Assembly: GCA_910574935.1 (NCBI GenBank)
Contig: CAJTCU010000018.1
Span: 1-60,904 of the forward strand
Length of the DNA: 60,904 nucleotides
Direction of reading: 5' to 3'
Source of the DNA: Oscillospiraceae bacterium
GTDB lineage: Bacteria; Bacillota; Clostridia; Oscillospirales; Acutalibacteraceae
In this document: positions 15,142-41,233 of the stretch, one piece after another
Position numbering within the stretch: position 1 is the first letter of the stretch
Layout of the letters: each line of letters starts with the position of its first letter
Notes under the pieces: generated by a model
Database searches by the model: none
What the model saw: only the letters and a program-made list of their open reading frames with translations
What the model was told of the DNA's origin: nothing
Position numbers and translations under genes: made by a program

Positions 15142-15176
15142 AAATCCCCGGAAACCCTAAAGTTTCCGGGGATTTT
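15142..15176 (-). terminator. Terminator downstream of tRNA fragment
   Basis: Stem AATCCCCGGAAAC/GTTTCCGGGGATT, T-rich on its left side. It directly follows the 3' end of the minus-strand initiator-tRNA fragment and is probably that gene's original terminator. Confidence 0.75.
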
Positions 15177-15177
15177 C

Positions 15178-15219: not shown

Positions 15220-15462
15220 GCTGTGGTGATTCGATTTTTTCCAGCAGCTTCCAGGCATTTCCGGCCCTTTTTGCTCGATTCTTCCGGCCAAAACCCGAAA
15301 GTCTGGCACTATATGCTTCCCTGAGCTTTTCCGGTTCTGGGTCAGAAAGTGGGTTGGGCGCTGAGAAAGCGAAAGGCCGAAAACGGAAGCGTCCGCAAAA
15401 TCTGCGTTGCAAAAAAAGAAAGAGTCAAGCGATATTCATCCATTTCAATTTGAGCGGAGAGC
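15220..15462. other. Spacer between tRNA scar and gntR
   Basis: No gene, RNA or repeat is recognised. By the orientation of the tRNA fragment, this side is where the integrated element should have continued, so it may be unrecognisable element DNA. Confidence 0.4.
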
Positions 15463-25934: not shown

Positions 25935-27215
25935 TCATTTGCACCGCTCAGTCATAATGGATAATATCGTCTGGTCTGTCTGCCGCATTCCTTGCTGAGC
26001 TAAAAATCCCACGTTCGCAATGGTGTTATCCACGCCTTTGGTCACGATGCCGTCGCCGCTTTTAAACTCCTGATGGTTCTTATACATAGAGTACCCCAAG
26101 ATCCCCGCATCCACGCTGGCGGCGATCTTGGCGGCGCAGGACGGCTTTGCCCCGTCGCAGATAGTTCCGCTGATAATCGCTACAGCGTTGACAATGGTGT
26201 GGGCAATGGCTTCGTAGCCGCCGTCCAGCAGATAGGCAATCCCTGCCCCAGCTCCGACCCCCGCGCTGACCGCGCCGCAGTAGGCCGAAAGGCGGCCTAT
26301 GCCGCTTTTCTGGTGGATGGTCACCAGGTCGCTGACCAGCAGCGCCCGGTACAGCTTTTCCTGGCTTGCCCCCAGGAACCTTGCGTAACGAACCACCGGC
26401 ACGGACGCGGTTATCCCCTGGTTGCCGGAGCCGGAGAGGATTACCACCGGCAGTTCGCACCCGCTCATCCGGGCGTCGCTCCCGGCGGCGGCCCAGGCTT
26501 TCGCCTCGGTCTTGATGTCCTCGGGGTACTCCGCCAGCAATACAGAGCCAATATTGGCGCCCCAGTTATTTTTCAGCCCCTCCTCCGCGATAGCCGTATT
26601 GCAGTCGATCTGCCGCTGTAGCAGCGGCGCGATCTCTTCCGGCTCTGCCGTATCAGCAAACTTCAGAATATCCGCGACGTTCAGCACGCTCTTGTCCGTA
26701 AGATTGTCCTCGGCGGAATCGGTAACCGGCTTTTCCAGCAGGACTTCGCCGTCCCTTTCTTCTCTAACGATATTGCTGTGGCTGTTGGCGATATGTACGC
26801 AGGCGGAATGCTCCCCCGCCCAGCCGGTGAGCCGTATGTCCAGCATCCGGGGCGTGTCGGCGCAGACGATCTCAATGGAGGTATCCCGGCAATAGGCCGC
26901 GATGGCCCTGTGCCGCTCCGCCGGAACAGAGGAGATGACCTGTAGAATCTTCTCAGCGTCCCCCGCCGCTATCCCCGCCGCAATGGCCGCGGAAATGCCC
27001 TTTAGCCCTCCGGTGTTGGGGACAACAACGCTTTTCACATTTTTGATGATATTGCCAGAGACCTCCGCCCGTATTCTTTCCGGCCAGAGCCCCAGAATAT
27101 CCCGGAGCCGGGCGGCGGCATAGGCCAGGGCGATGGGCTCCGTACAGCCTGTGGCGGGGACCAGTTCTTCCCTTAAAATGGACAAATACGCCTTTTTTGT
27201 TTCAGCAGTCAACAT
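25935..27215 (-). CDS. cyuA: L-cysteine desulfidase (CyuA/YhaM, UPF0597)
   Basis: 426 residues over the full length of the UPF0597/CyuA family: it begins with the PATGCTEPIALA motif and has the cysteine motif SGTICDGAKPSCAAK near the C-terminus, which with the N-terminal Cys binds the catalytic 4Fe-4S cluster. The enzyme splits L-cysteine to pyruvate, ammonia and sulfide in the cytosol under anaerobic conditions. It lies 15 bases after the YitT gene and probably shares its transcript. No cysteine transporter or CyuR-type regulator is adjacent. Confidence 0.9.
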   Translation of the reverse strand: MLTAETKKAYLSILREELVPATGCTEPIALAYAAARLRDILGLWPERIRAEVSGNIIKNVKSVVVPNTGGLKGISAAIAAGIAAGDAEKILQVISSVPAERHRAIAAYCRDTSIEIVCADTPRMLDIRLTGWAGEHSACVHIANSHSNIVREERDGEVLLEKPVTDSAEDNLTDKSVLNVADILKFADTAEPEEIAPLLQRQIDCNTAIAEEGLKNNWGANIGSVLLAEYPEDIKTEAKAWAAAGSDARMSGCELPVVILSGSGNQGITASVPVVRYARFLGASQEKLYRALLVSDLVTIHQKSGIGRLSAYCGAVSAGVGAGAGIAYLLDGGYEAIAHTIVNAVAIISGTICDGAKPSCAAKIAASVDAGILGYSMYKNHQEFKSGDGIVTKGVDNTIANVGFLAQQGMRQTDQTILSIMTERCK

Positions 27216-27230
27216 AAATTTTACCTCCTT

Positions 27231-28130
27231 TTATCGGGTGGGGCTTTCAGGCGGCTCCACATAGACCCGTTCGCTGGAAAAGCCCTGCCCCCGAACCTCC
27301 TTGATCTGTGTGATGGTCAGGAATGCATGGGGGTCAACGGATTGGATCAGTGACTGTGCGGCATAAAGTTTCCGGGGCGGGATCACGCACAGCACGCCGC
27401 GCTGGGGCAGCCTTGTCCTGCCGGTTTCAATTTGAATCATTGTGATACCGGCCTGTAGCTTTGTCAGGCATTTCTGCCGTATCTCCTCATACCGGCTGGA
27501 AACCACAAAGAGCTGTATCTGTGACTGCCCTAAAAGCATCACTTTGTCCAGCACAATTGTCTCTACCACCAGCAGCACAACGCCGTATAGGATTTGTTCC
27601 GGGTCAGAGAACACGGCCTGCGCACCCATAATGACGATATCCGTCAGGTAGACCGCCACGGAGACCGGGATATGGGTCCACTGATGCAGCGCCAGATTGA
27701 CTACATCCGTTCCGCCGGTAGAAGAACCCACCCGCATCACCAGCCCCACGGCAATGCCCACCAGCCCGCCGCCCAGCAGGGCCGACAGCAGCGGGTCGGC
27801 AGTCAGCCCATCAATATCCGGTACCCTCTGGGCCGCGCCCAGGAAGATGGGGTAGAGCAAGGAGCTGGCCACCGTAGCCAAAACGAACCTCCATCCCAGC
27901 ACCGCCCAGCCCAGCGCCAGGGCCAGCAGGTTCACGCATAAAACGATTACAGCGGTGTCCAGTGGAATAAACCTGGCCAGAACGACCCCAACGCCGGTAG
28001 CGCCGCCCATAATGACGCCGCTGGGCAGGATGAATGCCGCCACGGCGAACCCCAGCAGCATATTTCCGGCTATGATGGCAAAACCGGCCTCAGACGCTTT
28101 TTTCAAGCGCTTCCAATCAAGCTTTCTCAT
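27231..28130 (-). CDS. YitT family membrane protein
   Basis: 299 residues: five or six membrane helices in the first 200 residues (DUF161; GVIMGGATGVGVVLARF, SSTGGTDVV), then a cytoplasmic DUF2179 domain (YLTKLQAGITMIQ-like segment, VLCVIPPRKLYAAQSLIQ). It matches the usual YitT length and order. The ATG lies one base after the stop of the upstream M16 protease, so it is co-translated. Transport role is unproven; co-occurrence with a cysteine desulfidase in one operon hints at a sulfur or amino-acid connection (inference). Confidence 0.88.
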   Translation of the reverse strand: MRKLDWKRLKKASEAGFAIIAGNMLLGFAVAAFILPSGVIMGGATGVGVVLARFIPLDTAVIVLCVNLLALALGWAVLGWRFVLATVASSLLYPIFLGAAQRVPDIDGLTADPLLSALLGGGLVGIAVGLVMRVGSSTGGTDVVNLALHQWTHIPVSVAVYLTDIVIMGAQAVFSDPEQILYGVVLLVVETIVLDKVMLLGQSQIQLFVVSSRYEEIRQKCLTKLQAGITMIQIETGRTRLPQRGVLCVIPPRKLYAAQSLIQSVDPHAFLTITQIKEVRGQGFSSERVYVEPPESPTR

Positions 28131-28131
28131 A

Positions 28132-31023
28132 TCAGAGCACCTCTATATGGTCCAGCCAACCGGCACAGGCGTTCACCTGTTGCCGGGAGCCAAGGACGCA
28201 GACGCTCCCGCGGGCTGTCAGGTCCTCCACAGGGCCCGCCAGGGCGGTAAGATCTTCCGGCACAGTGGCAAGCATCTCCCGGCGGACGCGGCGCCGGTCC
28301 TCGTGGCTGATCTGCCGCCAATAGAGGGCGTCGGCGATCTTGCCTTTCATGCGGGCAGTCAGGAGCGGGTCGGACTCCGCCGCCGCGCCGGTGATCATGC
28401 CGGTCAGGTCTATAGCAATGCCTCTTAGAAAATCCGAGGAGGCGCGGTAGCAGTCCAGCGTCCGGGCGGCGCTGGGGTCACGGAAGGAGTAGAATCCCGC
28501 GAAGCCTGTGTCACGCAAAACCATTCCCGTGCCGTAGGCCCCGCCCTGGACCCGCACCGTGTTCCAAAGGTGGGCAAGGGAGACGGTACGGCCCATGACC
28601 TTCGCCGCGCCGCTTCCGGCTCCTTGGAAAACGCCGCCCAGAGCCGCGTATGATACGCCGGAGGGAATCACAAACCCTTCCCGCCGGGGCTTCCAGGGCA
28701 GGAGGGCCCCCGCGCAGGGCAGGGCAAAGCTACCCGCTGGCAGGCTGGACGAAAGGAGGCGGGCAATGGGATTGGCAGAGGCGTCATTCCCGGCGGTGAC
28801 GCTGACGGTCATGCGGGCGCGGCAGAAAATGCGGCGGGCCAGAGAGCTCAGGTCCTGCGCCAAAGCGGGAAAGCGGGCGGGGAAGTCCTGCTCCAGCTCC
28901 GTGAGCCACCGCAGGAAGGTGATGCCCGAAGCCTGCTCCTGCACGGCTCCCTCGGCGGTGGAGCAGGCCAGGACCCTGGCCATGGCGGCGCTGTGGCCCG
29001 CCGTGGCCATCTGCTCCGCCATGGCCGTCCGCCGCTGGCGCAGGAATGTGAGCGCCTGCTGGGAATTCTCCCACTGCTGCCCCACTAAAAGCTCTGTTAG
29101 GAAGGACAGGGCTTTTTCCAGCTTCGTGTCCAGAATACTACAGGAAACACACAGGAAGGTCCGGCAGCGCTCTGGGGCGTTTTTCCGCCCGTAGGCTTCT
29201 ATAGTGAATTGGATGCTTCCGAACAGGGCGCGCATCTCCCGGTTCAGGTCCGCCAGCCCATACTTTTCCGTATCCAGGCTGCCGAATAACTGGGCCATAA
29301 AGGACGCCTTAGCCAGTTCCTCAGGGGATAGGTCATCTAGCGCGAAATAGAGGCTGCAATAGGTGATACCGTTGGTGGGCAGCCGGTGACGAAGGAGCGT
29401 TATGCTGCCGGCAGTTTCTTCCTCTATGGGCAGCTTTTCCGGCTCCGGCGGAATCTGGTCAAGGCGAAGCCTGGGAATGGACGCCAGCTGCTCCGGCGTG
29501 TCCAGCGTATTCTGCCAAGCGGCGATAGCTTCCTGGAAGCGGCGGGCGCCGGCGGCTTCCGTGGCTCCCCAGCCGGAGCGGACGGCGCTAAGCCAAGCGG
29601 TCTCCTGTGCCTGGCGCTCCTGTCCTATGGTGTGGGAGGGCAGTGCCAGAACCCGGCAGTGATGAGGATTCTCTAAAATGAGCCGCTTCAGCAGATCTTC
29701 AAAATAACCGATCCCGCACTTGTCCCGCAGGCCGTCAAAGAGCGTTCCAACGCTGAGATTTGCCGCCGGGTCGCCGCCGTAGAGCCAGCTCTCTAGAACC
29801 TGGAAGCAAAGCACAAGCCCCTGGGGCATCTGCCCATAGTCCCGCTGCCGGGACTCAAATTCCAGGTTGTCCAGCGCCGCTAGGACCCGCCGGTGATCCA
29901 GCCCCTTCCGAGACAGCCGCTTTAGCTCATCCCGGAGGGCGGCGGACGCCTCCTCGGCCTTGTCCTCGGCCATGTCCCGGGCCTCCAGCATAAGCCAGGG
30001 CTGCTGTATACCGTCGTGAAGCTCTAAGCGGACGTCCCGGGCTAGGCCGCTTTCCAGAAGACGCCGTTTCAGGGGGGCCTGATTGTCCCCACATAGTACA
30101 TCCGATAAGGCTTGCAGCGCCATTAGCGTCTCCCTGTCCCGGAAGGTGCAGGCGGCGTACCCATCCGCCAGCCGGGCGCGTCCCTCCAAAGATTCCTGTG
30201 CGGACAGCTCATAGCGTATCACGGACAGGCCCGCTTCAATGGGCTTTTGCCAAGGTACCCCTTCCGGCACGGCAAGGCGCTCATAAGCACAGAGGTATTC
30301 ATGGTCTAGAATCCCGAGAACCTGTGCGATATCTATGCTGCCGTCCAAAAATATATAGGAATTGGACGGGTGGTAGAGGCGGCTGTGGGCGGCGGCGAAG
30401 GCTTCGTAGGTCAGCTCCGGGATTTTCGCCGGGTCTCCCCCAAAAACATAGCGGTAGCAGGTATCCGGAAACAGGCGGCGGGCCGCCTCTCGCTCCAGAA
30501 GGGCGTCCGGCGAGGAGAAGGCCCCCTTCATCTCGTTGAATACCACGCCCTTGATGGAGAGCGCGCCGGCTTCGTCCAGCTCGTAGTGCCAGCCCTCTTG
30601 GCCGAAAATTTCCGGCTTGGAGTGGAGCAGCGGGTGCAGTACCGCGTCCATGTAGACCCGCAGGAGATTGAGAAAATCCTGGCGGTTCCGGCTGGATACC
30701 GGGTAGACGGTCTTGTCAGGGAAGGTCATGGCGTTGAGGAAGGTGTTCATGGAGCTTTTCATCAACTCCACAAAAGGCTCCTTTACCGGGTAGCGTTTTG
30801 AGCCGCACAGGACTGAGTGCTCCAGAATGTGGAACACGCCCGTGTCGTCCCAGGGCTGGGTCTGGAAAGCGATGGCAAAAGTCTTGTTTTCCTCCGCGCG
30901 TTCCAGCCATACCAGCCGGGCGCCGGACTTTTGGTGCTCCATCAGCCAGAGATTCGCCTCCAGTTCGTCAATACGCTGTTGGTTTAGGACAATAAAGCCT
31001 GAAAAGATACTGCTCTTTTCCAT
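28132..31023 (-). CDS. M16C metalloprotease (presequence protease-like)
   Basis: 963 residues, the full length of insulinase-family M16C enzymes: inverted zinc motif HILEH (His65, Glu68, His69), the downstream Glu in EMKGAFSSPDALL, and four alpha/beta domains in one chain. It degrades short unfolded peptides inside the cell; no signal peptide. The frame stays open 67 codons further upstream, but that part is the translation of miniature element B. AGGAGG nine bases before the ATG at 31023 marks the true start. First gene of a protease-YitT-cyuA operon. Confidence 0.9.
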   Translation of the reverse strand: MEKSSIFSGFIVLNQQRIDELEANLWLMEHQKSGARLVWLERAEENKTFAIAFQTQPWDDTGVFHILEHSVLCGSKRYPVKEPFVELMKSSMNTFLNAMTFPDKTVYPVSSRNRQDFLNLLRVYMDAVLHPLLHSKPEIFGQEGWHYELDEAGALSIKGVVFNEMKGAFSSPDALLEREAARRLFPDTCYRYVFGGDPAKIPELTYEAFAAAHSRLYHPSNSYIFLDGSIDIAQVLGILDHEYLCAYERLAVPEGVPWQKPIEAGLSVIRYELSAQESLEGRARLADGYAACTFRDRETLMALQALSDVLCGDNQAPLKRRLLESGLARDVRLELHDGIQQPWLMLEARDMAEDKAEEASAALRDELKRLSRKGLDHRRVLAALDNLEFESRQRDYGQMPQGLVLCFQVLESWLYGGDPAANLSVGTLFDGLRDKCGIGYFEDLLKRLILENPHHCRVLALPSHTIGQERQAQETAWLSAVRSGWGATEAAGARRFQEAIAAWQNTLDTPEQLASIPRLRLDQIPPEPEKLPIEEETAGSITLLRHRLPTNGITYCSLYFALDDLSPEELAKASFMAQLFGSLDTEKYGLADLNREMRALFGSIQFTIEAYGRKNAPERCRTFLCVSCSILDTKLEKALSFLTELLVGQQWENSQQALTFLRQRRTAMAEQMATAGHSAAMARVLACSTAEGAVQEQASGITFLRWLTELEQDFPARFPALAQDLSSLARRIFCRARMTVSVTAGNDASANPIARLLSSSLPAGSFALPCAGALLPWKPRREGFVIPSGVSYAALGGVFQGAGSGAAKVMGRTVSLAHLWNTVRVQGGAYGTGMVLRDTGFAGFYSFRDPSAARTLDCYRASSDFLRGIAIDLTGMITGAAAESDPLLTARMKGKIADALYWRQISHEDRRRVRREMLATVPEDLTALAGPVEDLTARGSVCVLGSRQQVNACAGWLDHIEVL

Positions 31024-31066
31024 AAATGGCCGCCTCCTCGTAGTGAAATCTTTCTTGTTCGGCTTA

Positions 31067-31228
31067 GGGCTGGTTTGAAACATGGAAAACGCCGCCTTTT
31101 TACCCAGAAGCGGCCCTTTTCTGCGTCGAAAATCCTCGTAAAACAGCAAGGATTCCTTGCTGTTTTCTCCTGGGAACTGACCACTTCGGGTCAAAAATCC
31201 GTCATTTCCTCTATGTTCCAACAAGCCC
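31067..31228. mobile_element. Palindromic miniature element, copy B
   Basis: 162 bp, ends GGGCTGGTTTGAAA and CCAACAAGCCC, flanked by TA on both sides (31065-31066, 31229-31230). The apex is the perfect stem CAGCAAGGA/TCCTTGCTG. It sits between the divergent M16C and flavoprotein genes, so it lies in or next to both promoters. Confidence 0.88.
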
Positions 31229-31415
31229 TAGGTGCCAATATTATAGAAGCTTTTCGCTTCTGACGCAAGATGCTATGCTTATTCTGTTCATTTTCCCGAC
31301 CATTCTGTCCCATTCGCAAATACTCCCTACCGTTTCATACCGGCTTTGGGCTGGAACAGAGCGTCCGCTATTTGTACAGAATAGACCGTTTCCGGGGCGG
31401 AATGAGCAAGCGGTA

Positions 31416-31443
31416 TTGATTTTTTCGGAAAAAATGATATGGT
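31416..31443 (+). promoter_or_regulatory. Weak promoter candidate for redox-export cluster
   Basis: TTGATT (31416-31421), 16-bp spacer, TATGGT (31438-31443). The spacer includes the A/T mirror palindrome TTTTTTCGGAAAAAA. Match to consensus is only fair. Confidence 0.3.
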
Positions 31444-31476
31444 TGCATTTAGAAAAAGCTGGGAGGGGTGCGTCAG

Positions 31477-32337
31477 ATGTACGACCTGCTTATTATCGGC
31501 AGCGGGCCCGCCGGTGTTTCCGCCGCGCTAAGCGCAAAAGCACGGGGCCTGGATTTTCTATGGTTCGGCTCCAGACAGTTAAGCCCTAAAATCGTGAAAG
31601 CCCAGTGTGTGATGAACTATCCGGGGCTTCCGGCAGTTACCGGGCCAAAGATGCGGGATGCCTTTTTACATCAAGTGGACAGCTTGGGCATTTCTATTTT
31701 AGAGGAACGGGTCAATTCCATCTACGACATGGGCGGCTATTATACCGCCGTGGTCAATGACAAGATGTATGACGCCAGGGCGGTCATCCTGGCCCCGGGG
31801 GTATCTAACAGCCGGGAGATACCCGGCGAGAGCCGGCTGCTGGGGAAGGGGGTCAGCTATTGCGCCACCTGTGACGGTGAGCTGTACCGGGGCAAACGCC
31901 TGGCAGTGGTCTGCACAGACCCATCTTTGGAGGAGGAAGTCGAGTTCCTGGCCGGGCTGGCTTCAGAGCTGTTCCTGTGCACCAGCTATAAGGACTGCGG
32001 CGTCCACCGGGACAATGTGCGGCACACGGTGGGATATCCCACGGAAATTTTGGGAGGGGACAGGGCTTCCGGCCTGGTCTGCGGCAGCGAGACGGCAGCG
32101 GCGGACGGCGTATTCTGCCTGCGTTCCTGCGTGGCCCCGTCGGCGCTGCTGCCGGGACTGGCGGCAGAGGGCGGACACATCCGGGTGGACCGGGGACAGC
32201 GGACCAACCTGCCGGGCTGTTTTGCCGCCGGGGACTGCACGGGACGGCCCTATCAGTACGCAAAGGCGGTGGGCGAGGGCAACGTGGCCCTGCACAGCGC
32301 GGTGGAATACCTGAAAGAAATGGAGGCGCGGGAATGA
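31477..32337 (+). CDS. Thioredoxin-reductase-like flavoprotein, no NADPH motif
   Basis: 286 residues. FAD-binding IIGSGPAGVSAAL at the N-terminus, redox pair Cys129-Ala-Thr-Cys132 (CATCDG) and C-terminal FAD motif CFAAGDCTGRPYQYAKAVGEG as in TrxB. The second Rossmann domain lacks the GGGxSA NADPH motif; the place reads VVCTDPSLEEEVEF, and the HRRxxxR motif is absent too. Clostridial ferredoxin-linked flavin thioredoxin reductases show the same loss, so ferredoxin may be the electron donor (inference). A GTG at 31468 is in frame, but GGGAGG fits the ATG at 31477 better. It overlaps the next gene by four bases; the thioredoxin two genes on is its obvious substrate. Confidence 0.85.
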   Translation: MYDLLIIGSGPAGVSAALSAKARGLDFLWFGSRQLSPKIVKAQCVMNYPGLPAVTGPKMRDAFLHQVDSLGISILEERVNSIYDMGGYYTAVVNDKMYDARAVILAPGVSNSREIPGESRLLGKGVSYCATCDGELYRGKRLAVVCTDPSLEEEVEFLAGLASELFLCTSYKDCGVHRDNVRHTVGYPTEILGGDRASGLVCGSETAAADGVFCLRSCVAPSALLPGLAAEGGHIRVDRGQRTNLPGCFAAGDCTGRPYQYAKAVGEGNVALHSAVEYLKEMEARE

Positions 32338-33254
32338 GATCAAGAATATTAAAGATGAAGGACTACCGAGAGGTGGACGTGGGGCCGCTGCTTAAGCCTT
32401 TTGTGCCGGATGAGGCGGAGCTGGCTTCGGAGATAAGGCGGCTGACCAACCCGTATATCCGCTGGGAGCCCGGCGAGGTGGTCTCTGCCGGGGACCAGGT
32501 GGTGTGCCGGCTGGTTTCGGACTGCCCCAGGTACAATAAGGAGAAGGTTCGTTTTGTGGCAGGGAGCGGGATGTTTCAAAGGGAGCTGGAAAATCTCTCT
32601 ATCGGCATGAGGGTGGGCGAGACCCGGGAGGCTGGCCTGCCAGAGTGCAAGGTGTCCCTTGCGCTGGCAGGGGTGATGAACCGCGTGGCCCCGGAACCTT
32701 GTGATGAGATGGTGGAGAAGCTGGAGCTGGACGGCGTGCATACTGTGGCGGAATACCGGGCCTACCTGATGGAGCGGCAGAAAGAGGCCGCTTTCGGGCA
32801 GGACTCTTTTGAAGCGCTGAAGGAGCTCACCCGGGAGGTGATAAGCGGCTCTGAGTTTGTGCTGTACCGGGAGGACTGGGCCGAAGCCATTAACCGGGAG
32901 CTGGACCGCTGCCGGACGCTGTGCCGCCAGGAGGGCATGGTCCTGGAGAAAATGACGCCGGAGCAGTTCCAGGGCCGCATCCCGGTGAAAAGCTACCATG
33001 AGCTGGTAGCTATGCTCCAGTACGACGGCTGGGACAATCTCTGCCGCTATCTGCTGGGCCGCCGGTACGCCGAAACGGACCACTTTCACTCTGGCGAGGC
33101 GGAGTACGAGGCGTTTATCGCAGACTATGCCAAAACCTGGCGCGTCTCTGAGGAAAGCGCCCGGGAGGCAAACCCATTTGAGAACTTCATTTTTAACGAA
33201 TACGCCGGGCACGCCTATACGGTGCTGAAAAACTATATCAGAGAATTTTATTAA
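32334..33254 (+). CDS. Trigger-factor-like protein without ribosome-binding domain
   Basis: 306 residues. The central part (about 50-115) resembles an FKBP-type prolyl isomerase as in trigger factor (GMFQRELENLSIGMRVGETREAGLPE), followed by a long alpha-helical region like the trigger-factor chaperone arms. The N-terminal ribosome-docking domain with the GFRxGxxP signature is missing, so it should act free in the cytosol. No signal peptide. It is encoded between a flavoprotein and thioredoxin in one transcript and upstream of an ABC exporter, which suggests a dedicated folding helper for a secreted product. Family call is moderate. Confidence 0.7.
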   Translation: MRSRILKMKDYREVDVGPLLKPFVPDEAELASEIRRLTNPYIRWEPGEVVSAGDQVVCRLVSDCPRYNKEKVRFVAGSGMFQRELENLSIGMRVGETREAGLPECKVSLALAGVMNRVAPEPCDEMVEKLELDGVHTVAEYRAYLMERQKEAAFGQDSFEALKELTREVISGSEFVLYREDWAEAINRELDRCRTLCRQEGMVLEKMTPEQFQGRIPVKSYHELVAMLQYDGWDNLCRYLLGRRYAETDHFHSGEAEYEAFIADYAKTWRVSEESAREANPFENFIFNEYAGHAYTVLKNYIREFY

Positions 33255-33268
33255 GGGAGGAACCCATC

Positions 33269-33586
33269 ATGGCAATTCAAAACGCGGACAAGACCAATTT
33301 CAAAGAGCTGATCGGAGAGGACTTCGTCATTGTCGACTTCTACGGCACAACCTGTGTTCCCTGCAAGCTGTTTTCCAAGATACTGGAGGACATTGCGGCG
33401 GAGATACCATTCTTGAACATCGTCAAGCTGAATACCACCGAGAACCCGGAGCTGGCACAGGAGTACGGGATAACCGCCGTGCCCACTGTCCACTTCTATA
33501 AGGACGGACAGCTGCTCAAAAGCCATGTGGGCGTCATGCAGCCCCAGGTGGTGAAGGAGGTTATCGCCCAGTATATGTATGCGTAA
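33269..33586 (+). CDS. trxA: Thioredoxin with CVPC active site
   Basis: 105 residues, complete thioredoxin fold: beta strand FVIVDFYGTTCVPCK with redox cysteines 29 and 32, and cis-proline loop GITAVPTVHFYKDG. The usual WCGPC is replaced by TCVPC, which should change redox potential. No signal peptide, so cytosolic. AGGGAGG precedes the ATG and the gene follows the trigger-factor-like gene after 14 bases. Probable electron acceptor of the flavoprotein at the start of the operon. Confidence 0.93.
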   Translation: MAIQNADKTNFKELIGEDFVIVDFYGTTCVPCKLFSKILEDIAAEIPFLNIVKLNTTENPELAQEYGITAVPTVHFYKDGQLLKSHVGVMQPQVVKEVIAQYMYA

Positions 33587-33611
33587 AGCCGGACAGATTA
33601 AGCGGCTTTTC

Positions 33612-33638
33612 GGGCAAAATCGACATCTGCCCTTTTTT
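33612..33638 (+). terminator. Weak terminator after thioredoxin gene
   Basis: GGGCA/TGCCC five-pair stem followed by six T. A short stem, so partial read-through is likely. Confidence 0.5.
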
Positions 33639-33653
33639 CAATATTTCCAATAT

Positions 33654-33661
33654 GCTATAAT
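33654..33661 (+). promoter_or_regulatory. Extended -10 promoter for small lipoprotein
   Basis: TGCTATAAT: perfect TATAAT (33656-33661) with the TGn extension. No -35 worth naming. Thirty bases before the lipoprotein start, giving it a promoter separate from the thioredoxin operon. Confidence 0.6.
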
Positions 33662-33691
33662 CCATTCACCAATAAAAGGAGGCTCTGTCCC

Positions 33692-34171
33692 ATGAAAAAG
33701 ACTGTGAAACGTATCGTCTGCTCTCTGCTTGCACTGCTTTTAGTGTGCGGTCTTACCGCCTGCGGCGGCACAAAGGGCGTGGACCCGAAAACCTGCACAT
33801 ACGATGAGATGGTGGAATATCTTACCGCCAAGGGCTACATCTCCAAAGACGCCGCCCCGGTGGACATGCTCACTACCGAGGGCTATCTTACGGACAATAC
33901 CGGCGGTGATATCCCCTATGCACCTTTTGCGGATCAAGCACAGGACTACGATGGGCTCTGGCTGATGTGGTGGGACGCCGCCACCCCCTCTGAGGCGTAC
34001 ACCAACTGCTTCCAGAACCTTGCTATGAACGAGGGCGTCATCGTCTACATGGGCGGCGCGGCTGTTCTGGAAACCGCCGCTTACAACGGCAGCTTTGCCA
34101 TTGCCTTTGGGGAGGACTACGCCCAAAAGGACGCCGTTACAGCAGATTTCCAGGCGCTTTCCCAGAAATAA
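33692..34171 (+). CDS. Small secreted lipoprotein, WWD family member 1
   Basis: 159 residues. Lipoprotein signal with lipobox LTACGG (Cys24). The mature domain is acidic and compact, with a YDEMVEYL helix, a central WWD motif, and then NEGVIVYMGG and YNGSFAIAFG. The same pattern (MDEVLAEL, YWWD, DGVIDLYGS, HNGPFALWL) occurs in the protein at 37769-38248, so they are paralogues. I know no family for it. Two cysteines remain after the lipid Cys and could form a disulfide. It has its own promoter and is followed by a strong hairpin before the exporter genes, the layout seen for abundant exported substrates. Confidence 0.75.
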   Translation: MKKTVKRIVCSLLALLLVCGLTACGGTKGVDPKTCTYDEMVEYLTAKGYISKDAAPVDMLTTEGYLTDNTGGDIPYAPFADQAQDYDGLWLMWWDAATPSEAYTNCFQNLAMNEGVIVYMGGAAVLETAAYNGSFAIAFGEDYAQKDAVTADFQALSQK

Positions 34172-34179
34172 GGACATAG

Positions 34180-34226
34180 AAACGCCCCTACCCTATCCTA
34201 ATATTGGGATAGGGCGGGGGCGTTTT
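34180..34226 (+). terminator. Strong hairpin between lipoprotein and ABC exporter
   Basis: Stem AAACGCCCC-ACCCTATCC paired with GGGATAGGG-GGGGCGTTTT, loop TAATATT. Only 32 bases separate it from the exporter start and no promoter is visible there, so it probably acts as a partial terminator that sets a high lipoprotein-to-exporter ratio. Confidence 0.85.
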
Positions 34227-34258
34227 GCTGAAAAGTACATAAGAGGAAGGAGAAAACC

Positions 34259-35998
34259 ATGGAAACAAACGCGATTTTCCGAAAAAATTACGGCAGCTTC
34301 CGCCGCTTCTTCTCCATGCTGGGTAAGGCGGACCTGCCCTATCTGTGGATCGTAGGCTACCTTGTGGCAAGCGCCGTCATCGCCAATGCGGGCGTCAGCT
34401 CTACCGAATACAGCGCCGCTCTCTTCGCCGGGAATGTGGGACTGACCGCAGTGGTGCTGCCCTATCTTTTTTACCAGATTCTCTCCCTAATTCTCAGCTC
34501 TGTCTCCGGGCTCATCAATAACCTCTGCACAGCCCGCATGGACAGGAACCTGCGGCGGATGGTCTGGCGCAAGACGGTGAGCCTGCCCCTGCGGTTCTAT
34601 GAGAACAACAACCCCAAGGAACTGCTCAGCCGTATTACCACCGACATCTCCAGCATCAGCAATCTGGTCATGAAGGTTTTTCTCCCCATCTTTACCACGG
34701 CCTATGCCAGTTTTGTGATCCTTCAGAAAGTCTCTAGCTATGACGGGGCGCTGATGTGGTCCCTGGTGGCGGCGCTGCCGGTGAATATCCTCATCAGCTT
34801 TATTCTGGGCCGCCTGCAATTTGGCGTACAGGATCTTATCAACCGGCGCAACGCCCAGCTGACCGCCACGGTGGCGGAGCGTACCAATAACCTTATGCTG
34901 ATAAAATCCATGGGCGCCGAGGCGAAGGAGGCCGCCACCGGCGGGGAGCGGATGAAGGCCAGCTACCGGGCCGCCGGAATGAATATCTGGATCACAGGCA
35001 CAGCGGTTCCCATCCGTGCCATTGCCAGCGTCTTACAGACCGTCGTCATTATCCTGGTGGGCCGGGGATACTACGCTTCCGGCGCACTGAGCCTGACGGA
35101 GTGGATCGCTTATTACGGCTTTGCTATTCAACTGACCAATATCCTCAGCGCATACTGCGGCTACTGGACCTCCTTCAAAAGCGCCCAGGGCGCGGTGGAG
35201 CGGGTGAGCGAGATCATGGCCGAGCCTTCAGAAAATTTGAACGCCGGAAGCACCATGGAGTCACCGGCGGGAGGCATTCACTTTGAGAAGGTGGATTTCT
35301 CCTTCGGGAGCGAGCCCCTTTTCACGGGCTTAGACCTGGATATCCCCGCGGGGCGCATCACCGCCGTGGTGGGTCCCTCCGGGTCGGGGAAGACCACCCT
35401 GCTGAACCTGGTCGACCGTCTATACCCACTGAACGGCGGGTCGATACAGATAGGAGGAAAGGATACCTCGGATTACTCTCTGTCCAGTTTCCGCCGCGCC
35501 CTGGGATATGTGACCCAGGAGAGCGTTATGTACGCCGGCACCATCCGGGAAAACCTGCTCCACGGCCTGGGGCGGACGCCGCCGGACGAGGAGCTGGACG
35601 AGGCCTGCGCCGCCGTGGGCATCCTTGATTATGTCCGCCGCCAGCCCTTGGGCTACGACGCCCCGGTAGGGGAGAGCGGGGCCAGTCTCTCCGGCGGGCA
35701 GCGGCAGCGTTTCTCTGTGGCCCGGGCCCTATTGAAAAAGCCGGACTGCCTGCTGCTGGACGAGGCCACCGCCGCCATGGACATAGGCGGAAAGGCGGGC
35801 GTGTGGGCCAGCATCCGGCAGGTCATGGCGGGGAAAACCGTGGTCTATGTGGCCCATGACGCCCAGACCATACGCAACGCGGACTATCTGATCGTCCTTA
35901 GGGACGGGCGGGTGGAGGCCGCCGGGGAGCGGGAAGATGTGATGGCTTCCAACCTGTACTGTCGGGAAATGATGGAAAATGGAGAGGAGGTCTGCTGA
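34259..35998 (+). CDS. ABC exporter half-transporter 1 (TMD-NBD)
   Basis: 579 residues: six-helix type I exporter membrane domain (about 20-320), then the ATPase with Walker A GPSGSGKTT, signature LSGGQRQR, Walker B CLLLDEAT and H-loop AHD, all canonical. AGGAAGGAG precedes the ATG. No peptidase C39 domain at the N-terminus. It forms a heterodimer with the next gene, whose start lies one base after this stop. Likely substrate: a peptide or small protein, judged from the flanking secreted proteins and folding helpers (inference). Confidence 0.9.
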   Translation: METNAIFRKNYGSFRRFFSMLGKADLPYLWIVGYLVASAVIANAGVSSTEYSAALFAGNVGLTAVVLPYLFYQILSLILSSVSGLINNLCTARMDRNLRRMVWRKTVSLPLRFYENNNPKELLSRITTDISSISNLVMKVFLPIFTTAYASFVILQKVSSYDGALMWSLVAALPVNILISFILGRLQFGVQDLINRRNAQLTATVAERTNNLMLIKSMGAEAKEAATGGERMKASYRAAGMNIWITGTAVPIRAIASVLQTVVIILVGRGYYASGALSLTEWIAYYGFAIQLTNILSAYCGYWTSFKSAQGAVERVSEIMAEPSENLNAGSTMESPAGGIHFEKVDFSFGSEPLFTGLDLDIPAGRITAVVGPSGSGKTTLLNLVDRLYPLNGGSIQIGGKDTSDYSLSSFRRALGYVTQESVMYAGTIRENLLHGLGRTPPDEELDEACAAVGILDYVRRQPLGYDAPVGESGASLSGGQRQRFSVARALLKKPDCLLLDEATAAMDIGGKAGVWASIRQVMAGKTVVYVAHDAQTIRNADYLIVLRDGRVEAAGEREDVMASNLYCREMMENGEEVC

Positions 35999-35999
35999 T

Positions 36000-37772
36000 A
36001 TGAAGCGCAACGGAACAGACAGCAGCCAGCAGAAGCAGAAATATTCTTTCCGCGCCTATATCTCGTTTTATACCCGGTTTCCCATCCCCTGGTGGCTGTT
36101 TATCGTGTCCCTGGCGTTCGGCCTTGTCAATACCGAGGTGGTGCTGGCTATCTCCAAGTATGTGATCCAGATCAACAAGGGCGAGCTCTACAACGGCGTC
36201 ATTATCGGCTACTCCCTATTGACCGTGCTGAACGCCGTAATAGCCATGTTCAGCAACCTCTGCGGGGAGTATGGCATCCAGAAGGTCACCCTTAGGGCTA
36301 GGATGCTGCTGTGGAACAAGATACTCCACCTGCCCATGCGGGAAGTGGAGCGCCGCCAGCCCTCGTCCCTCATCTCCGGCGTTGTGAACGACATTACCCA
36401 GGCCAGCGCGGTGATACACATGATATTCTCCACGGTGGCCTCCATCTACGGCTTTATCCGCTGCTGTGTGGAGATGGCCCGGTTCAACGCAAAGCTCTCC
36501 GCATATATGCTGCTATTGGTCCCTCTGGCTATTGGCGTGTTCGTCCTGGTGGGACAGCTGCAGTACCGCATGATGCTGCGGCGGTATGAGAGCCTGAGCA
36601 CCATGACGGAGTTCTTTTCCGAGCATATCTCCGCCGCCAAGCACGTGAAAGCCCAGGCCATAGAGGAGCTGGAAGCGGAGGAGGGTTTTCGGGCCATTGA
36701 TGAGCGGTACAAAGCGGACATCTACTATGCCTTTATGGAGGTTCTGCAGGTGTTCTCCAATACGCTCTATACCTCCATCGGCAGCATTGCCATTGCCCTG
36801 TTCGGCTCTGACATGATCCGCAAGGGCCAGATGCCCGATACCGGCATCAATGACTTTACCACCTATAAGGGCCGGGTGGACCAGTACCAGGCTGAGGTGC
36901 TGACCCATTACCAGACCCTCAAGGGCACCCAGGGCGCCATGCGGTATGTGGGCGTCCTCCTGGATGGGCCGGAGGAGGACCCGGACGCCGGGTACGACCT
37001 GCCGAAGGACCGGACGAAGGAGGACATCCTGCTGGAACGGGTGAGCTTTGGTTACGACCCCCGCCAGCCGGTGCTCCACGACCTGAGCCTCACCATCCCC
37101 GCCGGGAGAACCACTGCCATTATTGGCAACAACGGCTGCGGCAAGTCCACCCTGCTCAAGCTGATCCAGGGCATCTATCTGCCGGACAGCGGCCGGGTAT
37201 GGTTGGGGGACTCGGCGGTGGACAAGGTGAAGCTGGCCCAGCTGCGCCGGCGCTTTGGCTGCATCTTCCAGCATAACCCCTTGTTTTCCGGCTCCGTTCG
37301 TGATAACATAGCCTATGGAGAAACCGGTGAAGTGTCGGATGAGGCGGTGGCTGGGGCCGCAAGGCTTGCGGATGCGGACGGCTTTATCAGCCAGCTGCCA
37401 GAAGGGTATGACTCTGACGTAGGCATGGGCGGGGCGCTGCTCTCTGGCGGGCAGCGCCAGCGGGTGGCAATCGCCCGGACGCTGCTGTTCGACCCGGACT
37501 ATCTGCTTATGGACGAGGCTGGGGCCAGCCTGGATCATAAGAGTGACAGGACCATCTTCCGCGCCGTTAGAGAACATATGAGGGGCAGAACGATTGTGGT
37601 GGTGGCCCATGATATGCGCACGGTGATGGAGGCGGATCATATCATCGTTCTCAACAGTGGCTCCCTGGAGGCGACGGGCACCCACGAGGAGCTGCTGAAA
37701 ACCAGCCCTACCTATCGTAACTATCTGGAATTGCAGGGATATGCCCTGGCGGGAGAGGAGGCAGGACGATGA
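36000..37772 (+). CDS. ABC exporter half-transporter 2 (TMD-NBD)
   Basis: 590 residues with the same layout as its neighbour: membrane domain about 20-330, Walker A GNNGCGKST, signature LSGGQRQR, Walker B YLLMDEAGAS, H-loop AHD. The Walker B aspartate-glutamate pair is kept, but the following residues (DEAGAS rather than DEATSA) differ from the partner, in keeping with asymmetric sites in heterodimeric exporters. GGAGAGGAGG inside the end of the first gene serves the ATG at 36000. Its stop overlaps the next gene's ATG. Confidence 0.9.
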   Translation: MKRNGTDSSQQKQKYSFRAYISFYTRFPIPWWLFIVSLAFGLVNTEVVLAISKYVIQINKGELYNGVIIGYSLLTVLNAVIAMFSNLCGEYGIQKVTLRARMLLWNKILHLPMREVERRQPSSLISGVVNDITQASAVIHMIFSTVASIYGFIRCCVEMARFNAKLSAYMLLLVPLAIGVFVLVGQLQYRMMLRRYESLSTMTEFFSEHISAAKHVKAQAIEELEAEEGFRAIDERYKADIYYAFMEVLQVFSNTLYTSIGSIAIALFGSDMIRKGQMPDTGINDFTTYKGRVDQYQAEVLTHYQTLKGTQGAMRYVGVLLDGPEEDPDAGYDLPKDRTKEDILLERVSFGYDPRQPVLHDLSLTIPAGRTTAIIGNNGCGKSTLLKLIQGIYLPDSGRVWLGDSAVDKVKLAQLRRRFGCIFQHNPLFSGSVRDNIAYGETGEVSDEAVAGAARLADADGFISQLPEGYDSDVGMGGALLSGGQRQRVAIARTLLFDPDYLLMDEAGASLDHKSDRTIFRAVREHMRGRTIVVVAHDMRTVMEADHIIVLNSGSLEATGTHEELLKTSPTYRNYLELQGYALAGEEAGR

Positions 37773-38248
37773 AACGCTTTACCATTGTTTTTTCCGTTCT
37801 TCTGGTGCTGGGCTTTGGTGGTGTGCTGGCCTATGTAGCGGCATCGCCGGAGTTTGTTCCACCCGCGGCACTGATTGGCGAGGGGGAAGACCCTGACGCT
37901 CCCATCTGGGACATGACCATGGACGAGGTTCTGGCCGAATTAGCGGCCCAGGGGCTGATTGACGACCCGGCCTCCGCCATTTCCCTGGCCAACGACGGCT
38001 TATGTACCGACGCCCGCAAGGTCAGCGGCGCGGAATTTTACTGGTGGGATCTGGAGAACCTGGAAGAGGGTAGCCAGGAAGAGACTGCCTATAAGAGCCT
38101 GAAATCGGATGGCGTCATTGATCTCTACGGCTCCGGGCACATTTTGAGTTATGTTCACAACGGCCCCTTTGCGCTGTGGCTGGATCTCTATGAGGGCGAC
38201 CCCGGCGCATTAGAGCAGGCGTTCAAGAATGTCGGGCAGGCGGAGTAA
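37769..38248 (+). CDS. Small secreted/anchored protein, WWD family member 2
   Basis: 159 residues. The N-terminal hydrophobic segment (about 5-26) lacks a lipobox, so it is either cleaved by signal peptidase I or an anchor. The outward domain repeats the layout of the lipoprotein at 33692-34171: MDEVLAEL helix, EFYWWD, DGVIDLYGS, HNGPFALWL. Only one cysteine remains. It overlaps the exporter gene by ATGA, so it is made with the exporter and may be its extracellular partner, an immunity protein, or a second substrate. Family unknown to me. Confidence 0.72.
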   Translation: MKRFTIVFSVLLVLGFGGVLAYVAASPEFVPPAALIGEGEDPDAPIWDMTMDEVLAELAAQGLIDDPASAISLANDGLCTDARKVSGAEFYWWDLENLEEGSQEETAYKSLKSDGVIDLYGSGHILSYVHNGPFALWLDLYEGDPGALEQAFKNVGQAE

Positions 38249-38267
38249 AAACAGGGAGGAACCGGCA

Positions 38268-39032
38268 ATGGAGATGAAAGCTCTACTGGTGGACAGTGAC
38301 CAGCGTCTGCTGGGCGAGCTGACCGTGATGCTGCACGCGTTCCAGTGCTTCCGGGTGGTGGGGACGGCGCGGACATCAACGGAGGCTGTTGAATATGTCC
38401 AGCTCAATGACGTGGACGTGGTATTTGCCAACCACCAGCCCGCCGACCCCCGCATTACCAGCGTGGGAGAGCATTTGTCCGCCGTTTTAGGGCAGAGCCA
38501 TCCACATATCCAGGTGGTGGTCTATTCCGACTCGGCGGAGTGGGCTTTCAATGCTTTCCGCTGTCAGTGCGCCGGGTACCTACTAACGCCTTTCGACCCC
38601 CTGGCGCTCCAATCGCTGGTCAACCGGCTAAGCTATGTGTTCGACCTACAGCAGGCCAAGCGGGAGGTGGCGAATCGCAGTATCATGATCAAAACCCGAA
38701 ACGGGTATCAGCTCACCCGTCTCAGTGATATTCTCTTCGTTGAGCGGAGCAATCGGAAAAACAGTATTGTAACCACCGATGGGCAGGAAATCACGCTGCT
38801 GGGATATACCATGAACCAGCTGGAGGAAATGCTGGAGGGGTGTGGATTCTACCGCTGCTACCAGTCTTTCATCGTCAACCTCTCCCAGGTTGCGGCTGTC
38901 CGGGCGGACAATGAGGCAAAAAATTATACCATCCGTTTCAAAGGCTATGAGGGAGAGATCCTGCTTAGCCGGGAAAAATATGCGGAGCTAGTGAACCTTT
39001 TGAAGGGGCGGTACGCGAAGATCAATATCTGA
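38268..39032 (+). CDS. LytTR-family response regulator
   Basis: 254 residues: a CheY-like receiver (1-120; MKALLVDSDQRLLGEL) followed by a LytTR DNA-binding domain (about 140-250; DILFVERSNRKNSIVTT, FYRCYQSFIVNLSQV). In the receiver the usual phospho-Asp strand reads VDVVFANHQP, so the acceptor Asp appears to be replaced by Asn or Ala and it may work without phosphorylation. No sensor kinase gene is adjacent. GGGAGG nine bases upstream selects this ATG over an earlier in-frame start. LytTR regulators often run quorum or bacteriocin operons, matching an exporter locus. Confidence 0.85.
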   Translation: MEMKALLVDSDQRLLGELTVMLHAFQCFRVVGTARTSTEAVEYVQLNDVDVVFANHQPADPRITSVGEHLSAVLGQSHPHIQVVVYSDSAEWAFNAFRCQCAGYLLTPFDPLALQSLVNRLSYVFDLQQAKREVANRSIMIKTRNGYQLTRLSDILFVERSNRKNSIVTTDGQEITLLGYTMNQLEEMLEGCGFYRCYQSFIVNLSQVAAVRADNEAKNYTIRFKGYEGEILLSREKYAELVNLLKGRYAKINI

Positions 39033-39259: not shown

Positions 39260-39934
39260 AAGAATGTGCTTGGCAAGACCCAGACTGAGGTTAAAGAGAA
39301 ACTTGCCCGGGCAATCGAGGACGGCAAAGGGTTGGACATCGTAAAGGCCGGTCCACTATACGGTAGGGCATTGGATAGACGGGTGGTATGAGAACTACGC
39401 CAAAATCAAGGTGCGGCCATCCTCGCGCAAAACCTACAAAGGTTATGTTGAAAATCCCATCAAACCGAGCATCAGCACGTTACCGCTTAGTAAGCGGACT
39501 AGGGCTTGTTTGAAAATAGAGGAAATGACGAATTTTTACCCAGAAGGGGTTCATTTCAAGGAAAAAACCGCAAAGCAATCTTCCGATTGGCGAGGATTAT
39601 TGACGCAGAAAGGGGCCCCTTCTGGGTAAAAAGACGGCGTTTCCGATTTTTCAAACAAGCCCTACGCTGGAAGTACAAGCCCTTTACAGAAAGCCGCCGG
39701 CCAGCGGTAGGGCAGAGCGTACAGAGTCCAAACAGCAACCCAAAACCTTGAGCGCCAAGGCAGTATGCAATATAAACCAGGTGATTGCGTCTGCAATGTG
39801 GCTTGCCAAAAGCCAGAAACTCATTATAGTCAGTCCCCCAGGCGGTGGTGCCCTGTTAAAGGGAGAACATTAGGAAATCAAAACGCGGGCAGCAGACCAG
39901 TTGGCAACATTGTTCCAGCGGGGCAAAGAAACAG
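39260..39934 (+). pseudogene. Tyrosine integrase, N-terminal remnant split by element C
   Basis: Translations resemble the N-terminal and core-binding domains of ICE integrases: GKTQTEVKEKLARAIEDG, then after a frameshift WYENYAKIKVRPSSRKTYKGY and SISTLPLSKRT. Element C follows, and beyond it the frame resumes TLEVQALYRKPPASG, then KTLSAKAVCNINQVIASAM, a stop, and EIKTRAADQLATLF. The catalytic domain is absent. Removing element C plus one TA joins the two halves in frame exactly. This could be the missing half of the C-terminal remnant at 14821, but the order on the chromosome is reversed, so that is unproven. Confidence 0.82.
39502..39662. mobile_element. Palindromic miniature element, copy C
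   Basis: 161 bp, both ends GGGCTTGTTTGAAAA, flanked by TA at 39500-39501 and 39663-39664. Inner arms match over about 45 bp (both contain ACCCAGAAGGGG). Apex CAATC/GATTG. This copy interrupts an integrase remnant and so proves TA duplication on insertion. Confidence 0.93.
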
Positions 39935-40744: not shown

Positions 40745-40849
40745 ACCATTTGCTCCTTACCTCATTTTTTACTATTTTAACATGAAGTTCACCATAATGC
40801 AACATAAAGCGGTAAATTTTACAAATGGAATTTTGTATCCAGCCTTTTA

Positions 40850-41032
40850 GGACTTGTTTGAAAATAGAGGAAATGACGAATTTTGGGCCAGAAGGGGACA
40901 ATTTCAAGGAGAAGAACCGCTGTAGTTAGCTGCGCTAACTACGTCACTCTGGCGATTGACGAGGGTTTTCGACGTAGAAAGTGGCCTCTTCTGGCCAAAA
41001 AAGACGACGTTTTCGATTTTTCAAACAAGCCC
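40850..41032. mobile_element. Palindromic miniature element, copy D
   Basis: 183 bp, ends GGACTTGTTTGAAAA and TTTTTCAAACAAGCCC, flanked by TA on both sides (40848-40849, 41033-41034). It is the longest copy because its apex carries the stem GTAGTTAGC/GCTAACTAC in place of the shorter apical sequence of copy A, which it otherwise closely resembles. It lies between the TM2 and GH42 genes, about 200 bp ahead of the GH42 start. Confidence 0.88.
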
Positions 41033-41233
41033 TAGATGTGGACCCAAAAACCGCGCGGACCATCCATCTAAAATAAAGCCATGACGTAGTGGTTAAAAAA
41101 TTCTTCTCCAGGTCTTGAAAGAGGGATAGGTTTGTGCCATAATTACCATAATGACCGGCTGCCCAATGAACACATAGGCAGTCATCCTGCTGAAAAAAGA
41201 AAATCCCCTGTGACGCAGAAAGGAATTGAAACT

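Follow-up and report, generated by a model that had tools for sequence, protein, structure and literature searches.

A recurring gene cassette of gut bacteria with matching predicted LytTR promoter boxes and a possible role in the uptake and breakdown of disulfide-bonded peptides

Introduction

What task could unite a thiol reductase, a thioredoxin (TrxA), a trigger-factor-like (TF-like) protein, two exporter-fold ABC half transporters (ABC1 and ABC2), two small proteins of one family with a WWD domain (LP1 and LP2) and a LytTR regulator? The question is raised by a 60,904-nucleotide stretch of DNA from an Oscillospiraceae bacterium (GCA_910574935.1, contig CAJTCU010000018.1; hereafter the window), where these genes occupy 31477..39032. 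The original prediction took them for a candidate undescribed export system, which might keep a small protein reduced and unfolded before exporting it, and all eight of its open reading frames (ORFs) were found at those coordinates. The unit is, moreover, larger than first read: three further cassette genes lie on the minus strand (25935-31023), divergent from the eight.

Sequence comparison indicates that a few gut bacteria from more than one family carry this block of about 11 genes, with matching predicted promoter boxes. The sequences themselves show which genes it contains, that they occur together, which classes their proteins belong to, and what transfer and promoter boxes the carriers share; the direction of transport, the substrate, the activities and the order of steps are what we infer. 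Our preferred reading, held tentatively and with somewhat less than even confidence, is that the block is a mobile, self-regulated cassette for the uptake of disulfide-bonded (cysteine-rich) peptides and their intracellular destruction. In agreement with the earlier claim of novelty, no description of such a gene set was found in the open-licence literature searched.

Results

The cassette genes stay together in other genomes

We scanned 84,980 species genomes for the TF-like gene with two short peptide patterns, a search that distant or differently conserved relatives can escape because it relies on those two patterns. The gene was found at 11 other loci. The carriers are two Oscillospiraceae near the window, three Lachnospiraceae (A2, 3-1 and Petralouisia muris), two Oscillospiraceae metagenome-assembled genomes (MAGs) labelled Lapin, three Gemmiger and Scatolibacter rhodanostii (L039), all of which we take to be animal-gut bacteria. 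One locus (L034) stops directly after the TF-like gene, and gene-content counts rest on the other 10. TrxA, ABC1, ABC2, the WWD protein LP2 and LytTR are each present in 10/10 of these loci (the Scatolibacter LytTR gene is complete), the peptidase and desulfidase genes of the minus-strand unit in nine, the reductase and YitT genes in eight, and LP1 in seven. The neighbours of the TF-like gene stay with it elsewhere, which supports a conserved unit; rare adjacency of homologues, the outcome that would have counted against the original prediction, was not seen for this gene.

Gene order is less constant. In Gemmiger, YitT sits between the reductase and TF-like genes, with desulfidase and peptidase at the opposite end; in Scatolibacter these two are inserted between TrxA and LP1, in the same orientation. 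Wherever the sequence extends far enough (10 loci), the TF-like and TrxA genes precede LP1/ABC. Retention of the same content in altered order matches the expectation from functional linkage.

The TF-like protein is rare. It was detected in 2/150 family genomes (the window's own genome and G095, whose gene is the one found in Scatolibacter) and was not found in G125, the sole congener drawn. In a class-wide set of 391 genomes, a good match came from the window's own genome alone; seven others gave weak, partial matches (E 8e-9 to 8e-4) that may be ordinary trigger factors. No relative was seen in viral contigs (pattern scan) or plasmids. The window protein compares at 75-77% with the Lachnospiraceae copies versus 49-54% with the Lapin and Gemmiger copies.

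Relatives of the enzymes are more widespread among the 150 family genomes: 10 carry the peptidase (E <= 1e-60), 19 the desulfidase (E <= 1e-40) and 47 a similar reductase (E <= 1e-30, a count that may include NADPH-type enzymes), the own genome included each time. Ten stretches around lone relatives held no second cassette gene, save in L052, where one generic ABC ATPase match lies beside the lone relative, and in G077. In the latter (L045, 9137-13378), peptidase and desulfidase genes are adjacent in a genome without a TF-like match, the sole such pair seen outside the cassette; it is possibly a core older than the cassette. The own genome also encodes a second PreP-type peptidase, 61% identical (G000:C1:374517-377396, L048), with no other cassette genes in the 20 kb inspected around it.

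Near-identical copies lie in mostly unrelated surroundings

The three Lachnospiraceae copies have 12.97-13.2 kb in common at ~98% identity, with no further match above 600 bp in their flanks, and the three Gemmiger copies have 12.7-13.0 kb in common at ~97%. Within both sets the flanks of these near-identical copies are mostly unrelated, and the block borders fall from a few bp to ~400 bp beyond the terminal genes. L036 and L038 match as far as the sequence extends on the right, so that the border is not reached on that side, and L029 and L030 also have common flanks. Nine flank proteins were scanned; they include two phage-type integrases (L032, L037), one MobL relaxase (L029) and one RepA_N initiator (L031). 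Taken together, these alignments mark the cassette as mobile. Four window flank genes used as tblastn queries had no match in the other loci; short DNA matches (~130-300 bp) connect the L029/L030 flanks with other parts of the window.

The cassette units carry matching predicted promoters

Direct repeats of the form GGACAGAAT-N12-GGACAGAAT occur at 31281-31310(-), 31374-31403(+) and 33591-33620(+), before the peptidase, reductase and LP1 units. A looser repeat search gave eight matches in the window versus 2.5 expected, and these three rank best. A box matrix was made from half-sites of the window and L031 once all loci had been looked over; in L035-L039 it scores best at 21-bp spacing, before cassette units (Gemmiger 11311, before ABC1, and 20834-20850, before the peptidase gene; L035 3625 and 5055; L039 9840).

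We then defined a composite promoter as a 9-12-9 repeat, a 12-bp gap and a -35/-10 pair, with a cut-off score of 22. It has 26 matches in eight loci, compared with 0.85 on average and at most 3 in shuffled sequence (n = 20); at a score of 24 or more there are 19 matches versus 0. This test is not blind, because the 12-bp gap to the -35 was chosen after the sites were seen: gaps of 11 and 13 give 20 matches each, 10 gives 9 and 14 gives 12. With the two repeats set at gaps other than 12 bp, 0-11 matches remain. In addition, only about five independent lineages contribute, because L029/L030, L031-L033 and L036-L038 are near-identical. Twenty-two of the 26 matches precede cassette units (the peptidase unit, the reductase or TF-like unit, and the LP1/ABC unit); of the remaining four, three lie elsewhere in the window and the fourth is an overlapping site in L038. 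A score of 23 or more is reached by four window sites; one of these, at 20266 (score 24), falls outside the cassette and could be a chance match or a further target. Two more sites outside it score 22. Across the whole genome, the box allowing up to 2 mismatches has 39 loose matches compared with 11 for the backwards pattern. Among the 12 inspected, only two, both in the cassette, had a composite promoter scoring 22 or more; the other 27, including the 31374 site, lay outside that inspection. A general promoter and terminator scan reported none of these predicted promoters. The cassette units look like one regulon.

The proposed switch is the LytTR protein itself, which has the DNA-binding domain. 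The phospho-acceptor Asp of its receiver is replaced in 7/7 aligned copies (Asn in six, Ser in one; position assigned by eye), so the regulator is probably not driven by phosphorylation, and its earlier description as "quorum-type" finds no support.

A predicted disulfide-reducing pair accompanies a ribosome-free trigger-factor-like protein

Pfam and NCBIfam back most of the classes first named for the plus-strand genes: pyridine-nucleotide-disulfide reductase, thioredoxin, two exporter-fold ABC halves and LytTR. The reductase, first labelled TrxB, resembles ferredoxin-type flavin thioredoxin reductases (FFTRs). A profile of six copies matched PDB entry 6gnc best (E 4e-87), then 6gna and 6gnd, which we take to be FFTRs (the entries are titled thioredoxin reductase); the next thioredoxin reductase followed at 7e-42. 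The CxxC motif, CATC at position 129 in the second domain, is invariant in the six aligned copies. Glycine motifs occur only at residues 8 (FAD) and 266 (C-terminal) of the window copy, and the NADPH-site glycine motif and HRR are absent in three copies. According to an excerpt of PMC12796991, ferredoxin is the electron donor of FFTRs. The TrxA motif is CVPC in 5/6 copies and CGPC in the Scatolibacter copy.

Assignment of the TF-like protein stood in part. It has no Pfam match, and its similarity to TIGR00115 (E 3e-8; 32.9 bits, or 29.5 from DNA) lies far under the cut-off of 180.2, the match spanning positions 118-383 of 410 (start 118-119) in a protein of 306 aa. Profile-profile comparison, in contrast, aligned it colinearly with real trigger factors (hhalign, 246 columns, probability 95.1%, E 3.2e-8). 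The alignment begins just before the FKBP domain: the FKBP-like and C-terminal chaperone regions are kept, and the ribosome-binding N-terminal domain is absent. A separate full-length trigger factor is encoded in the own genome.

The minus-strand unit encodes a PreP-type peptidase and a desulfidase homologue

Similarity of the peptidase to PreP extends over almost all of its length, and the window copy has the M16C_assoc and PreP_C domains. Its zinc-site motifs (HxxEH and the distal Glu, here HILEH and NEMKG) are intact in 5/5 in-frame copies; a sixth row was out of frame and was dropped from this count. No transmembrane-like or hydrophobic N-terminal segment follows the start ATG at 31023. 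Known PreP relatives cut peptides of 10-65 residues. The desulfidase homologue aligns with the L-cysteine desulfidase of PDB entry 9he0 (E 4e-28) over residues 12-423 of 426, and the motifs GCTEP, GCELP and CDGAKxSCA are present in all four copies inspected. Because Pfam calls this domain a serine dehydratase alpha chain, homology does not fix its substrate.

Given that the peptidase and desulfidase belong to the same predicted regulon as the disulfide-reducing pair and the prolyl isomerase, opening and consumption of disulfide-bonded peptides in the cytosol are suggested. These co-moving genes point to breakdown rather than secretion. The earlier proposal of an exported, reduced and unfolded small protein finds no support here.

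The WWD proteins are probably not cargo

The original prediction implied that the WWD proteins are the cargo. By eye and by hydropathy, however, LP1 has a lipoprotein signal peptide with the lipobox LTAC, LP2 starts with a signal or anchor, and in neither family is a cysteine conserved in all members. With Sec-type N-termini of their own and no family-wide cysteines, they need neither an ABC exporter nor a thiol-protecting pathway, and we set this role aside. LP2 has one WWD domain in the window, two in Scatolibacter (L044 11-811) and three in the Lapin MAG of L035 (9275-10486). In L038 (Gemmiger An194, 15136-15613), LP2 matches fall in two frames, possibly through a frameshift or a sequencing error.

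A wider WWD family was also considered. Nine of the 150 family genomes matched LP1 at E <= 0.001, namely the window's own, G095 (E 8e-42) and seven with weak matches (E 9e-5 to 8e-4), six of which cover the N-terminal part only. The LP2 profile gave two in the 391 class genomes, the own genome and G479 (E 2e-5). No cassette gene was found at the locus in G148, the one weak LP1 genome opened, or around the G479 match, and we treated the weak matches as chance. Nor was any cargo or precursor ORF shared between lineages noticed by eye among intergenic ORFs of at least 20 aa in the window, L029, L031, L036 and L035, and for these loci a hidden precursor peptide was rejected. Between the window and L029, DNA similarity alone would lead one to expect some conservation.

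Both ABC halves keep Walker A, the signature, the catalytic Glu and the His in seven aligned copies. Their Pfam matches include no C39 domain, in line with the reported absence of a C39 peptidase. Between LP1 and ABC1 lies a strong hairpin, at which the general scan reported no terminator. Hairpins occupy the same position in L029, L031, L035 and L039 (5/5 loci folded, window included), with unrelated sequence in L035 and L039 and the weakest in L039 (z -3.7). Recurrence in place, though not always in sequence, suggests selection for structure. This layout resembles one by which binding protein is produced in surplus.

Layout of the locus in the window

Features are collected in Table 1. The genes of 31477..39032 had been described as separated by tiny gaps or overlaps, which is true of 5/7 junctions; the TrxA-LP1 gap (105 nt) contains a predicted promoter and the LP1-ABC1 gap (87 nt) contains the hairpin. 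We amended two starts, ABC2 to 36000 and LytTR to 38268, both probable and each preceded by a Shine-Dalgarno-like sequence.

Table 1. Genes, predicted promoters and hairpin of the cassette, in window coordinates
Feature	Position	Strand	Basis
L-cysteine desulfidase (CyuA/UPF0597)-like enzyme	25935..27215	-	Pfam SDH_alpha E 1e-60; PDB 9he0 E 4e-28; motifs
YitT-type membrane protein with DUF2179	27231..28130	-	Pfam YitT_membrane E 3e-45, DUF2179 E 2e-10
M16C metallopeptidase, presequence-protease (PreP) type	28132..31023	-	Pfam M16C_assoc 2e-44, PreP_C 3e-25; PDB 2fge E 5e-148
Predicted LytTR-type promoter, peptidase-YitT-desulfidase unit	31240..31310	-	GGACAGAAT-N12-GAACAGAAT, 12 bp, TTGCGT-17-TATAAT
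Predicted LytTR-type promoter, FFTR unit	31374..31443	+	GTACAGAAT-N12-GGGCGGAAT, 12 bp, TTGATT-16-TATGGT; region aligned in 6 loci
FFTR homologue	31477..32337	+	6-copy profile vs PDB; CATC; glycine motifs
Trigger-factor-derived protein, FKBP-like and C-terminal parts	32334..33254	+	TIGR00115; hhalign
Thioredoxin (TrxA)	33269..33586	+	Pfam Thioredoxin 3e-19; CVPC
Predicted LytTR-type promoter, LP1/ABC unit	33591..33661	+	GGACAGATT-N12-GGGCAAAAT, 12 bp, TTTTTT-17-TATAAT
LP1, WWD-family lipoprotein	33692..34171	+	lipobox LTAC; alignment of 7
Strong hairpin, LP1-ABC1	34179..34226	+	-38.1 kcal/mol, z -6.7
ABC1, exporter-fold ABC half	34259..35998	+	Pfam/NCBIfam
ABC2, exporter-fold ABC half	36000..37772	+	Pfam/NCBIfam
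LP2, WWD-family protein, N-terminal signal or anchor	37769..38248	+	hydropathy; one WWD domain in window
LytTR regulator, receiver without phospho-acceptor Asp	38268..39032	+	Pfam LytTR 5e-16; alignment of 7

The G+C content of the cassette (25935-39032) is 58.8%, compared with 47.8% in the left and 56.6% in the right flank of the window. A partly palindromic repeat of ~165 nt with TAGGGCTTGTTTGAAA ends, which looks like a miniature inverted-repeat transposable element (MITE), has copies at 31062-31231, 39500-39664 and 40848-41034. Of 165 candidate places, 40 were scored, and 76 matches are listed: the first 40 are close to full length, and most of the others repeat those positions on the opposite strand. 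The tally is thus a minimum. In L029 nothing corresponds to the segment 31062-31205, which separates the peptidase gene from its predicted promoter.

Discussion

A candidate route for uptake and destruction of peptides

In the model that we favor, the lipoprotein LP1 and the anchored LP2 would capture a peptide outside the cell, and the heterodimeric ABC transporter would carry it inward. Electrons would pass from ferredoxin through the FFTR homologue to thioredoxin, which would open the disulfides of the peptide, while the ribosome-free TF-like prolyl isomerase would hold it unfolded for degradation by the PreP-type peptidase. The desulfidase homologue could then split the released cysteine into pyruvate, ammonia and sulfide, and the LytTR activator with its pseudo-receiver may switch the units jointly. 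Uptake is our preferred direction, at rather less than an even chance, because the transporter unit begins with a lipoprotein and no cargo gene was noticed. The fuller proposal, a horizontally moving machine with which gut commensals import, reduce, unfold and destroy disulfide-bonded peptides (defensins or bacteriocins, for example) through an exporter-fold ABC pair acting as importer, to neutralise or feed on them, is more doubtful. There is precedent for parts of it: parts of the cited sources describe the Sap system of Haemophilus importing host peptides and degrading them in the cytosol (PMC3207918) and propose that PreP relatives serve in bacterial import-and-destroy systems (PMC9291397).

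Several observations weigh against this model. The ABC halves have the exporter fold, and the best PDB matches named for them are mostly exporters. Export is the usual activity of pairs with this fold, although a minority import. No FFTR or YitT gene was found in the surroundings of L035 and L039, Scatolibacter (L039) is absent among the FFTR profile matches, and neither peptidase nor desulfidase was found in the ~3.8 kb upstream and ~3.4 kb downstream read at L035. LP1 was not found in 3/10 loci, all Gemmiger, where no remnant was detected at E <= 10 in the gap of two loci or at E <= 1 in all three; it is thus no essential receptor there. LP1 and LP2 match no curated family (Pfam, NCBIfam) convincingly and no PDB sequence, YitT has no role in the model, and FFTR-like, M16C and desulfidase genes also exist without the cassette. 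Finally, an extract of PMC9291397 describes the distribution of PreP homologues as unbiased among peptide-resistant bacteria.

The exporter fold favors the converse arrangement, in which FFTR, thioredoxin and the TF-like protein hold a cytosolic peptide or small protein in a reduced, unfolded state and the ABC pair exports it, with the PreP-type peptidase clearing failed molecules and LP1/LP2 acting as assembly or quality-control partners outside. Exporters are among the nearest solved relatives of both halves, and the constant position of the TF-like and TrxA genes ahead of LP1/ABC, even where desulfidase and peptidase intervene in Scatolibacter, fits as well. Yet the intergenic spaces of five loci held no noticeable conserved cargo ORF, the Sec-type N-termini and lack of family-wide cysteines in LP1/LP2 speak against a need for such a pathway, and the desulfidase homologue has no obvious place; we regard dedicated export as unlikely. 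The desulfidase would be at home in thiol homeostasis, where a CydDC-like ABC pair exports cysteine or a low-mass thiol, desulfidase, FFTR and thioredoxin meet cysteine overload and disulfide stress, and the TF-like protein and peptidase handle damaged peptides. These three classes do act on thiols, and both halves resemble the CydD and CydC models (ABC1 208.4 and 207.7 bits, ABC2 213.2 and 178.4; cut-offs 435 and 329.05). For each half, however, several other exporter models give better scores, and the lipoprotein-first unit, the hairpin and the linkage of a PreP-type peptidase to a ribosome-free trigger factor are left unexplained, making this explanation rather improbable.

A further rival is peptide immunity at the cell surface. 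NisI-type lipoproteins sequester peptide, and LanFEG transporters, whose membrane and ATPase domains are not fused, expel it from the membrane; by analogy, LP1/LP2 would sequester a toxic peptide, the ABC pair would expel it from the membrane, and the cytosolic genes would handle what leaks through. A lipoprotein, an ABC pair and LytTR regulation in a mobile, patchily distributed cassette are consistent with this idea. In contrast to LanFEG, though, the cassette halves have fused domains, no biosynthetic genes were recognised in the cassette, and the genes for cytosolic reduction and proteolysis are left without a main role. We consider it the least probable of the explanations.

Should uptake and destruction prove correct, gut commensals would be exchanging a compact means to open and digest disulfide-bonded peptides that couples ferredoxin electrons to uptake. 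Weak matches aside, neither the WWD domain family nor that of the ribosome-free trigger factor has been seen without the cassette. These two families and the predicted LytTR regulon, with its defined box, offer testable handles independent of mechanism. The bacterial setting of a PreP-type peptidase also bears on the origin proposed, in the part of PMC9291397 consulted, for organelle presequence degradation in peptide-resistance machinery.

Comparison with known systems

We know of no system with a matching parts list; the proposed working nevertheless resembles import-and-destroy systems. Sap is a multi-subunit importer. If the direction of the cassette is inferred rightly, it is like Sap of nontypeable Haemophilus influenzae in pairing an extracytoplasmic binding protein and ABC import with cytosolic peptidases, as far as an excerpt of PMC3207918 describes these. 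It differs in having exporter-fold half transporters and WWD proteins that match no solved fold, and in adding genes for a reductase, a chaperone, a PreP-type peptidase and a desulfidase homologue, all under a single predicted regulator.

Individual components compare similarly. The peptidase has the near whole-length similarity, C-terminal domain and zinc-site motifs of PreP (M16C; PMC9291397, in part; PDB 2fge), but it is bacterial, lies in a regulated transport cassette and has an activity predicted from sequence. The reductase is like FFTRs (an excerpt of PMC12796991; 6gnc, 6gna, 6gnd) in sequence class, CxxC and missing NADPH-site glycine motif; unlike them, it is linked with transporter, peptidase and chaperone genes, and its ferredoxin dependence is a prediction. 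The TF-like protein is colinear with the FKBP-like and C-terminal parts of trigger factor but lacks the ribosome-binding domain and falls far under the family cut-off. With the thiol exporter CydDC the cassette shares a heterodimeric exporter-fold ABC pair in a thiol-related setting, although its scores lie far under the CydD/CydC cut-offs; from C39-type peptide exporters it differs in the absence of a C39 domain among the matches of the ABC halves and of any recurring small ORF noticed.

Regulation offers a last comparison. In the portion of PMC6193735 available, a LytTR operator consists of a pair of 9-bp repeats, generally separated by 12 bp and in most cases located 10 bp ahead of the -35. 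The cassette boxes are likewise two 9-bp direct repeats 12 bp apart upstream of the -35, but the distance to it is 12 bp, the box GGACAGAAT is unlike the repeats listed in that portion, and the regulator has a pseudo-receiver. In HdrRM/BrsRM-type systems the operon includes a cognate membrane protein. Directly beside the LytTR gene of the cassette stands LP2, with one N-terminal span, rather than a multi-span protein; the multi-span YitT sits in another unit.

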